DNA of 64,000 bases from Armatimonadota bacterium (GTDB lineage Bacteria > Armatimonadota > Fimbriimonadia > Fimbriimonadales > Fimbriimonadaceae). Within the stretch, counting starts at the first letter, position 1. Every line of letters starts with the position of its first letter. A program made the position numbers and the translations under genes. Shown piece by piece: positions 53,854 through 58,362 of the stretch. Location of the stretch: contig JBAXHT010000001.1 of assembly GCA_037138755.1 (NCBI GenBank), positions 343,805 through 407,804 of the forward strand. The letters are read 5' to 3'. The notes beneath the pieces were generated by a model. The model made no database searches. It was given only the letters and a program-made list of their open reading frames with translations, and had not been told where the DNA came from.

Positions 53854-54099
53854 GATCTGAATGTCCATCGTCGGTCGTCTATGATGAATACGGGTCGCCG
53901 AAACGGCGGATTGCTTCACCATCAACCAAGGCTGACGCAATAGAGAATGATACTCAAGTGTTGCACCGTTTTGCAACCTCCAACCGTCTTTGTCTGTTTC
54001 GGGAGCGATTCAGCGATGCGTCTGTTCATCTCAAACCGCCCCTACTCGTCGATTCCACCGGATGCGCTTGGTCTTCAAACTCACTTGTGTTTCACTTTA

Positions 54100-55224
54100 T
54101 CAGTAGGAAACTTTGTAGGGCTGAGTTCCGAACACCGCGTATGCGCCATCCTTGGTAAGACGAACTTTGTACGCCTTCTTTCGAGTGAGTAGCAGAGTTT
54201 CATCGAGTTTCAACGGCCCTAGAGCCAGGTTGGTTATGGGTGAGAATCCCATTTGGGGCCGCCTAGATTTTTTCCCCTTCGCCTCTAGAGTTACCTCGTT
54301 CAGCGTAGCTGGCAAAGTGGGCGAGCTACGCCGGACACTGCTACCACCTGGTCCTCCTTTTAGGGTCGCTATCACAGAACCGTCTGTGGCACTGATGAGG
54401 TAGGCAGAAAGCGGTCGCGATTGGGTTGAGTCGTTGATCTGGGCATCCTCATGTTCAATGAAGACTTCGTAAGTAACTTCTCCAGTATCCAGCTTAACTA
54501 GCCTTTGTACGGCTGGATTCGACTTCTCGAATGCGTAAACCATCTGACTACCGTTCCCGGTGATCCACTTTTTCGGTGGACGATTGACCGCGACCAAGCT
54601 CGATTTACCAGATCTGAGGGTCTTGGACATTGCGACCGAAACTGCCTCATCGGGGGTGAGCCTAGAAGAACGCAAGTTGCGAACATCAAACATCCGCCTG
54701 GCCGTCACGTAATTGCAAATCCCCGTGCTTCCTTCCAACGTAACTTGGCCAATCCCACCGGGACCGACGGGTACGTTTCGATGTATCGGACGAAAAAACC
54801 TGTGCCAGCCACCATCCTTAAGATTCCAGAACATTCCGGACTCAAACTCACCTTCCAGGCCGCTCAAACTTGGCTCGAAGGCCGCTAGGAACTTGAGCGC
54901 GGAAGAACGTAGGCTTGCTTCAGGCAAAAAGGGCTTCTTAGGATCTAGGCTAACAAAGTGAAAAAAGCTATGCACGACACCGTTTGGAGAAATGTCTACG
55001 GAATCTCCCAACGCACTGTCAATCATGTACACATCTTCACCCGAACTCTTCAAAAGCCTATACGGCTTGAGGGATTGCACGGCACTGCTCTTCGCCTGAG
55101 GGCTCAAAGCGCGAGCCATTCGCTCATGTGTTGCACTGGCAAGTTCGATAAGTTTCGGTTCAGATAACCTGCCGAGGTTGCTTTGCAGGTTCTGTGCGGC
55201 GACTAGGAGAACAGAGTGAATCAT
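54100..55224 (-). CDS. Uncharacterised envelope protein, second gene of the inserted pair
   Basis: A 374-aa protein with a short hydrophobic N-terminus (MIHSVLLVAAQN) that could be a signal peptide. The middle (~195-300) has strands such as SLVAVNRPPKKWITGNG and QRLVKLDTGEVTYEVFIEHEDAQI, giving a PepSY- or sheet-like look; no family is assigned. It starts 2 nt after the stop of the caspase-like gene, so the pair is co-transcribed. The ATG at 55224 is chosen over 55260, which overlaps the previous gene. Confidence 0.65.
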   Translation of the reverse strand: MIHSVLLVAAQNLQSNLGRLSEPKLIELASATHERMARALSPQAKSSAVQSLKPYRLLKSSGEDVYMIDSALGDSVDISPNGVVHSFFHFVSLDPKKPFLPEASLRSSALKFLAAFEPSLSGLEGEFESGMFWNLKDGGWHRFFRPIHRNVPVGPGGIGQVTLEGSTGICNYVTARRMFDVRNLRSSRLTPDEAVSVAMSKTLRSGKSSLVAVNRPPKKWITGNGSQMVYAFEKSNPAVQRLVKLDTGEVTYEVFIEHEDAQINDSTQSRPLSAYLISATDGSVIATLKGGPGGSSVRRSSPTLPATLNEVTLEAKGKKSRRPQMGFSPITNLALGPLKLDETLLLTRKKAYKVRLTKDGAYAVFGTQPYKVSY

Positions 55225-55226
55225 TT

Positions 55227-56837
55227 TTATGGTCTCGATGCAGGGTAGACCCAATACCAACTAGTTGGATGGGGAGTGTTGAATAGTTGGCTTTCGGAGG
55301 CATCCCTTAGATACACACCTCTAGCCGTGAATCGTTGATCGCCGACCATCAGTAACGGATTTGCCGAAATCGGCGAGTTTGAAGTCGGCGAAAACGAGGC
55401 GCAAGTGAACGGACGGTAAGCCTGATTAGCTTGCTGAATGGCGCGTTGCAACGATTCCCCAGAGGTAAGGAGATCCTTAACTCTCTGATAATGTAGCGTC
55501 AAGTGCTTCGCAGAATCGATTTCTCCGTAAGTTGCAGGCAACACATTGACCCCGACCGTCGAGTACACATCATGAGCGAATCCGGCATAGGCTCGACCCG
55601 TTCCATCGGAAATCAGCTTTGCGCCTTCAGGCAAGTCGGAGGACGCCTTGAGGGTTGAGCATGCGTACATCAGAAACAGGTTTGGTTCGTTGGGAACCGA
55701 GGGCATCGTCAGTCTGTTGTTTATGCGGCTCGATATTGGAATTCGAGCCCAGGTAGGGTTTTGCCCTTCGCCGCCCGAGACGGTTCCCGTCAAAGCGATG
55801 TTACTATTGCCGTAAAAGAAACTGGAAGGCCAGAATTTTCCAGGAGCACCGTGTGTAGCGAAGACATACAGACTCGCAGTCGTCATAGAGTCGAGTACAT
55901 TGACATCCGACTGGCTCGAAGGATCTCCACTCGTCACCTTGGTGCAGGAGAACCCAGTGAGTGTTGAAGTCAGAAGCGCGTCTAATGAAATCTCCGAAGC
56001 GACTGCGGGGTAATCCGTACTGTAGTAGGGCGTGTAGCCTGTTGAAGTCACTTGAGTTGACATTGCATAAAGTCGGTTGAACACATTCCTCTCGACTGGC
56101 ATTGAATCAATTGATTTACCGACCGGCTGACCTCCACCGGGAGGCGTGACTTGAATCCCCAACCTGAGCTTCATCGATACTTTGGGGTTACCTGCACTCA
56201 AGCTGTCTGCAAAATGAGTTGAATCCAATCGAATCTCCCATCCACCGTTACCAGCCTTGGTCGGGTTGAGCAGGATTCCAGGCTCAGAGTTGACTAAGAG
56301 CTTCACCTGCGTCACCAAATAGGTTGCACCCTCAGGTGGTGTGACTTGAGCATCGAACTTGATCTCATTTTTCGTCCCCGACAAGATCTTTGGCGCATCT
56401 AAACCCACCATCGAAACCGTGGGATCGGGAAGCGGATCTGGCTCAGGATCAGGGTTTGGACCGCCAGTTGAACCTCCAGCGGTGCTTCCCGAGTTGCCGC
56501 CACCCGTGATTCCTACTCCCGTTGTCGAGCCCGTTGTGGTGCCTGTGGTTGTACCGGTAGTTGTGCCTGTAGTTGTACCCGTCGTCGTGCCAGTCGTGGT
56601 TCCTGTGTTGGTCGTTCCAGTGGTAGTGTTGTTCGTGGTGCCGGTTGTGGTACTCGTCGTCCCGGTCGAAGCAGTGGTTCCTATACCGCAGTCGCCGATC
56701 ATGATGATCTCGCCGGTATCCGGGTCAAAGACAAATGTACAGGGGAGCTTCGGATTATTCCGAACCTTGATTGAACCACCGCTCGACAGAATTCCCATCG
56801 CCGCCGCCAAGACCACCGCATAACTCACCCACTTCAT
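55227..56837 (-). CDS. Secreted Thr/Gly-repeat protein with a clan CD (caspase/CHAT-like) peptidase candidate domain
   Basis: A 536-aa protein. Residues 1-20 form a signal peptide, ~54-108 a TGTT-type tetrapeptide repeat linker, ~112-140 a Gly/Pro/Asp linker, ~140-255 an Ig-like beta domain, and ~255-500 a domain in which VFATHGAPG (His329) and LFLMYACST (Cys393) match the His-Gly and Ala-Cys motifs of clan CD peptidases (gingipain, caspase, CHAT). It may be a secreted or surface protease. The promoter contains a G11 tract. It sits between map and rpmJ, an unusual site. Confidence 0.7.
   Translation of the reverse strand: MKWVSYAVVLAAAMGILSSGGSIKVRNNPKLPCTFVFDPDTGEIIMIGDCGIGTTASTGTTSTTTGTTNNTTTGTTNTGTTTGTTTGTTTGTTTGTTTGTTTGSTTGVGITGGGNSGSTAGGSTGGPNPDPEPDPLPDPTVSMVGLDAPKILSGTKNEIKFDAQVTPPEGATYLVTQVKLLVNSEPGILLNPTKAGNGGWEIRLDSTHFADSLSAGNPKVSMKLRLGIQVTPPGGGQPVGKSIDSMPVERNVFNRLYAMSTQVTSTGYTPYYSTDYPAVASEISLDALLTSTLTGFSCTKVTSGDPSSQSDVNVLDSMTTASLYVFATHGAPGKFWPSSFFYGNSNIALTGTVSGGEGQNPTWARIPISSRINNRLTMPSVPNEPNLFLMYACSTLKASSDLPEGAKLISDGTGRAYAGFAHDVYSTVGVNVLPATYGEIDSAKHLTLHYQRVKDLLTSGESLQRAIQQANQAYRPFTCASFSPTSNSPISANPLLMVGDQRFTARGVYLRDASESQLFNTPHPTSWYWVYPASRP
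56517..56660 (-). repeat. 12-bp coding repeat (Thr-Gly-Thr-Thr units)
   Basis: A run of near-identical 12-bp units (plus-strand pattern GTNGTNCCNGTN) encodes residues ~60-107. Such coding minisatellites change copy number by slippage and would lengthen or shorten the linker in steps of four residues without a frameshift. Confidence 0.75.
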
Positions 56838-56848
56838 GACTTTTGAAC

Positions 56849-56878
56849 ATCATAAGCCCCCCCCCCCGAAAATGTCAA
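56849..56878 (-). promoter_or_regulatory. Promoter with G11 tract in the spacer (putative phase-variable)
   Basis: On the minus strand, a perfect -35 TTGACA (56873-56878) and -10 TATGAT (56849-56854) are separated by 18 bp, of which 11 are consecutive G (56857-56867 complement). The ATG is 11 nt past the -10. One base lost gives the optimal 17-bp spacing and each further change weakens it, so slippage could tune expression. Confidence 0.75.
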
Positions 56879-56898
56879 GACACTTTTTGAAAGAACTT

Positions 56899-58315: not shown

Positions 58316-58350
58316 CCTATAAGTCTTATAGGATCTACAAGACTTATAGG
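58316..58350. repeat. Inverted repeat in the secY-adk gap
   Basis: CCTATAAGTCTT (58316-58327) pairs perfectly with AAGACTTATAGG (58339-58350), and the first arm extends into a nested palindrome (CCTATAAG-T-CTTATAGG). It lies between two co-oriented genes, so it may attenuate, stabilise or be a repeat element insertion. Confidence 0.7.
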
Positions 58351-58362
58351 CTCTGATTATGA

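Follow-up and report, generated by a model that had tools for sequence, protein, structure and literature searches.

Poly-G tracts in promoter spacers are known as phase-variation devices mainly from a few host-adapted pathogens, and the usual explanation for them is immune escape. The switching of opa genes is translational, and the poly-C tract of fim sits elsewhere in its promoter. In the porA promoter of Neisseria meningitidis, a tract of 11 Gs lies between the -35 and -10 elements, and surface expression of the protein is about twofold lower with 10 Gs and about thirteenfold lower with 9 Gs (PMC3639595). Similarly, tp0126 of Treponema pallidum carries a poly-G tract between -35 and -10 and is transcribed best at a spacing of 17 bp (PMC7864442). 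The initial annotation of the DNA studied here, a 64-kb stretch of an Armatimonadota genome (hereafter the window), had named fim and opacity-type genes as precedents for a G tract in a promoter spacer; the comparison with slippage-controlled promoters stands, but the closest matches are porA (PMC3639595) and tp0126 (PMC7864442). A search of mainly open-access literature found no publication that mentions both Armatimonadetes and phase variation.

The promoter and its two-gene cassette

On the minus strand, the promoter region reads TTGACA-TTTTC-GGGGGGGGGGG-CT-TATGAT-GTTCAAAAGTC-ATG (Table 1). The two hexamers had been described as lying 18 bp apart, with G at 11 of these 18 positions, and direct reading of the sequence confirms this to the base; in a promoter scan, the hexamers contain 11 of the 12 sigma-70 consensus bases. 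As in promoters of the porA type, the homopolymer separates -35 and -10 elements that can both be recognised, and their spacing of 18 bp is close to the optimum. The G11 length at 56857-56867 is one assembled value. The ATG of the 536-aa ORF, at 56837, follows 11 nt past the -10 element, and transcription is expected to start near 56842, which would make the mRNA nearly leaderless, with about 5 nt ahead of the start codon.

Table 1. Positions of the promoter elements, genes and associated features within the window
Feature	Position	Strand	Basis
-35 element TTGACA	56873-56878	minus	sequence; promoter scan (11/12)
G11 homopolymer, proposed site of slippage, in the 18-bp spacer	56857-56867	minus	sequence; reversed-pattern controls
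-10 element TATGAT	56849-56854	minus	sequence; promoter scan
Interval between -10 element and ATG, 11 nt	56838-56848	minus	sequence; family-wide spacing
Protein of 536 aa: signal-peptide-like N-terminus, linker rich in Thr and Gly, HG/C motif in the C-terminal domain	55227-56837	minus	ORF; profile search; alignment
Degenerate in-frame 12/24-bp repeat coding for TTTGT-type linker	56530-56610	minus	repeat analysis
Codon for the invariant His, H329 in THG (putative caspase-like dyad)	55851-55853	minus	alignment
Codon for the invariant Cys, C393 in YACSTL (putative caspase-like dyad)	55659-55661	minus	alignment
Second cassette gene, directly after the first, likely co-transcribed, no Pfam family	54100-55224	minus	ORF list; Pfam
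Two-gene cassette with its own G-tract promoter, missing in sister genome G016	54012-56898	minus	genome comparison
Separate promoter TTGCAA-18-TATCAT before rpmJ-rpsM, kept in G016	53947-53976	minus	promoter scan; comparison

The initial annotation had called the product of the first gene a secreted surface protein with a caspase-like fold. The first part of this description reaches as far as the signal-peptide-like N-terminus, MKWVSYAVVLAAAMGILSSGG, which provides the predicted export signal expected of a porA-type target. For the second part, a profile search across the phylum returned matches in 12 genomes, including the window's own, and in an alignment of 12 sequences (A2), the window protein among them, H60-G61, C124, G150 and D231 (alignment numbering) are invariant. 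The conserved motifs THG and (Y/H)AC-x-T-L resemble the catalytic dyad of caspase and CHAT peptidases, and one relative has a CHAT match below the family cut-off (E = 0.024). The invariant HG and C residues recall those of the caspase-like clan CD cysteine peptidases. In contrast to these enzymes, the window protein has no significant match in Pfam, profile searches of the PDB with alignments A1 and A2 returned none, and AlphaFold2, run on the single sequence without an alignment, gave a pLDDT of 35 and no usable fold. Based on the HG/C motif, a caspase-like fold is at most a reasonable guess. A poly-G spacer promoter, TTGACA-TTCCA-G12-AG-TAGGAT with a spacer of 19 bp, also precedes the gene of a homologue with 25% identity (L060) in another genus of the family (genome G065). 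Another relative (L306, G075:C1:2292082) has a poly-glycine stretch directly past its signal peptide.

A coding minisatellite in the same gene had been proposed as a second layer of variation. The array can be read as six copies of a 12-bp unit (73% matches, score 60) or, overlapping, as 2.6 copies of a 24-bp unit (81%, score 82), both in frame, and is not a high-identity tandem repeat able to slip. As the repeat is degenerate and in frame, hypervariability is unlikely, and the minisatellite was rejected as a second switch.

The cassette sits between map and rpmJ-rpsM, and the start codon of its second gene is an ATG within the listed ORF 54100-55260 that comes just after the stop codon of the first gene. 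The Map protein encoded in the window is 52% identical to that of an Armatimonadetes MAG, which is suggestive of the phylum. In G016, whose Map protein is 93% identical, map is directly followed by rpmJ-rpsM and homology to the window restarts at 54011, so that the predicted switch is part of a cassette that has been inserted or lost. Since the cassette is missing from G016 and rpmJ has its own promoter in both genomes, the switch need not affect the ribosomal genes. On the same two grounds, a conserved core-gene promoter was rejected and switching of the ribosomal operon itself was found to be unsupported. Elsewhere in the window, about two copies of an 18-bp unit, CTACAAGACTTATAGGAT, are present at 58317-58354, between adk and secY.

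Recurrence and length of G-tract promoters in related genomes

A Markov model based on the local value of P(G|GGG), 0.21, predicts 0.003 G or C runs of at least 11 in 64 kb and 0.15 in the 3.27-Mb genome; pattern searches of the genome found four. For runs of at least 9, 3.8 are expected in the genome and seven were found, and the 64-kb window has no other G or C run longer than 7. Two of the other runs in the genome also lie near the start of genes for secreted proteins. A G12 run at C1:938362-938373 (L009:363-374) falls within the stretch coding for the signal peptide of a secreted protein that has distant relatives in four other genomes. As assembled, with G12, the frame stops after 22 codons, and with G11 it would stop after 38, while it would be open for about 510 codons with G10 or G13; this run is likely a translational contingency locus. 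At C1:1906821-1906829 (L012:422-430), a TATAAT-like element is followed by a C9 run, which is separated by 3 nt from the ATG of a gene for a further secreted protein. Counting the G11 spacer, secreted-protein genes thus have three of the seven long runs at their 5' ends, each placed differently.

Searches for G tracts between promoter hexamers were controlled by running each pattern backwards without complementing it, which leaves the composition identical. The pattern TTGAC-N3-9-G8+-N0-7-TANNNT gave 16 sites in nine of 61 family genomes, and none when reversed. With the wider TTGAC-N3-12-G8+-N0-8-TANNNT, we found 30 sites in 14 of the 85 genomes of the taxonomic family (reversed, 0) and, across the phylum, 94 distinct sites, counted after overlapping rows had been merged by hand, in 48 of 291 genomes (reversed, 5). 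Even without the -35 requirement, G8-N0-6-TANNNT-N3-9-ATG matched in 19 of 85 genomes, against 3 for the controls. As the reversed patterns matched far less often, G runs occur between promoter hexamers well above chance, and their placement is non-random. In the genus of the window species, a G-tract spacer promoter is present in only one of 19 other genomes, and such a scattered occurrence among close relatives counts against phase variation. In related drafts, an unusually large share of the long G runs is located at the ends of contigs (for example G016:C20:11-21, G017:C73:3-13 and G005:C132:7-17), which may reflect breaks in the assembly at these tracts.

Among the 30 family sites, L056 and L108 lack a clear gene downstream and were excluded from what follows. 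A hydrophobic, signal-like N-terminus, defined by a 9-residue mean hydropathy of at least 2.0 as a crude stand-in for a signal-peptide predictor, is present in all 28 assigned downstream proteins and in 8 of 34 background ORFs from the same loci, a ratio that should not be over-read as start codons were picked partly by closeness. These proteins are mostly small (90-180 aa), and none of the ten that were scanned, the larger homologue L060 included, has a significant Pfam match. In 24 of the 28 promoters, the start codon lies 4-9 nt past the -10 element, most commonly 6 or 7, and the mRNAs are therefore probably leaderless. The gap of 11 nt in the window is longer than the 6-7 nt of most family members, which is a point against phase variation.

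Tract lengths differ among close relatives. Between G184 (G11) and G185 (G10), orthologous promoters differ in the tract and are identical over the rest of the 221-nt query, in 2.9-kb loci that are 94% identical overall. In the genus of these two genomes, a multi-copy promoter with the constant 3' flank ACAGAGTAGAAT occurs with G7, G8, G9, G10 and G11, giving spacers of 14 to 18 bp; its copies (L284-L291 and L315-L329, in G184, G185 and relatives) precede different exported proteins and form a natural spacer-length series. Near-identical promoters with G9 and G17 (16 and 24 bp) are found at the neighbouring paralogues L062 and L109 of G090:C4, and both G192 and G180 have one promoter copy with G8 and one with G9. 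Length variation with constant flanks, as in porA-type promoters, is thus seen at other poly-G promoters in related genomes, and the pattern across near-identical promoters is what strand slippage would be expected to leave behind. Individual cases might be due to homopolymer assembly errors, but such errors can hardly account for the pattern as a whole. Across the relatives, spacers span 14 to 24 bp, and some copies may be silent promoters, which again counts against phase variation.

Phase variation and alternative explanations

The recurrence of the arrangement, the bias towards secreted proteins and the length differences between near-identical promoters argue for phase variation. The exact promoter anatomy, the excess of long G or C runs in the genome, the G12 spacer before the L060 gene, the likely contingency locus at C1:938362-938373 and the measured effects at porA and tp0126 also speak for it. 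We consider it highly probable that G11 is a slippage-controlled, phase-variable spacer of a sigma-70-type promoter of the porA kind, and the most likely role of the window promoter is to turn expression on and off, or up and down, at random, as switches best known from pathogens do. Of the phase-variable switch put forward in the initial annotation, the slippage-prone spacer in front of a secreted-protein gene is upheld by the recurrence and by the tract lengths in relatives, and from these we infer switching in the window species itself. We propose that single Gs are added to or dropped from the run during replication and that each step would shift the distance between -35 and -10 by one base, with 18 bp at G11, 17 bp at G10 and 16 bp at G9. 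As RNA polymerase prefers about 17 bp, transcription would go up or down with the length of the tract. The secreted protein and its downstream partner would then vary together, and the change would be random, heritable and reversible. The benefit might be a variable display of the exported protein across the cell population.

The most serious alternative is an ordinary promoter, constitutive or regulated, with a fixed G run in its spacer whose length is too constant to matter. A spacer of 18 bp is near optimal and such a promoter can work as it is, but G-tract spacers occur far above the control level and almost solely before genes for secreted proteins, and the tract is the part that differs among otherwise identical promoters in relatives; we therefore regard this explanation as unlikely. 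Much less probable still is an effect of the structure of the run itself or of a protein bound to it, for example as four-stranded DNA, a stiff spacer or a regulator site, instead of an effect of the distance between -35 and -10. The poly-G tract of Treponema tprL does affect transcription without altering this spacing (PMC7864442), yet the runs described here fall between recognisable hexamers with spacings of mostly 15-20 bp, as control by spacing would predict. Homopolymer assembly errors are common, and G runs often lie at contig ends in the related drafts; however, the G11 tract is located midway in a 2-Mb contig and the arrangement recurs in many independent genomes, with no reversed-pattern match in the family. 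We consider a chance tract or an assembly artefact the least probable explanation, with very little weight.

If the window promoter is a phase-variable switch, it adds one case to a kind of poly-G spacer promoter that is already known. Of greater interest than this switch alone are the lineage-wide, near-leaderless poly-G promoters of secreted orphan proteins. With confidence a little above even, we suggest that, in this apparently non-pathogenic lineage, many unrelated small secreted orphan proteins share a slippage-prone poly-G promoter placed immediately ahead of the start codon and are translated from leaderless mRNAs, so that clonal cells would randomly express differing combinations of the secretome, a porA-like system outside host-adapted pathogens. 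Should such promoters recur before secreted-protein genes in a lineage that is probably environmental, factors other than animal immunity, such as phage, predators, neighbours or surfaces, would be selecting for the random exposure of exported proteins. The range from G7 to G17 across promoters offers ready natural variants for studying how spacing sets output, and near-leaderless starts would couple promoter and start codon unusually tightly.

Comparison with described poly-G promoters

Poly-G spacers are also widespread outside the phylum. In a scan of one genome per species, TTGACA-G10+-TATNAT was found in at least 119 stretches and in many other phyla, and 44 of 63 ORFs downstream have hydrophobic N-termini among the matches listed. 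Poly-G spacers of at least 10 Gs, often in Clostridia and Bacilli MAGs from the gut, precede signal-peptide or lipoprotein-like ORFs (L110-L189); a Candidatus Ancillula and a Streptococcaceae MAG have several such sites. Among the matches listed, promoters from Clostridia MAGs, Helicobacter, Ca. Ancillula and Saccharibacteria have the same poly-G spacer layout as the window promoter. Their starts, however, mostly lie 20-130 nt downstream, with ordinary leaders, whereas in the window's family the distance is usually 4-9 nt.

With tp0126, the window promoter shares the poly-G tract between -35 and -10 and the exported product, and the 17-bp optimum assumed here is that of tp0126 (PMC7864442). 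The proteins differ, as tp0126 is a reported OmpW homologue (PMC7864442) and the window protein is without any Pfam match. The likeness to porA lies in the G tract within the -35/-10 spacer, the reference state of 11 Gs, the exported protein and the one-base steps in spacing (PMC3639595). Unlike porA, the window promoter belongs to another lineage, would have a near-leaderless start and precedes an unrelated target.
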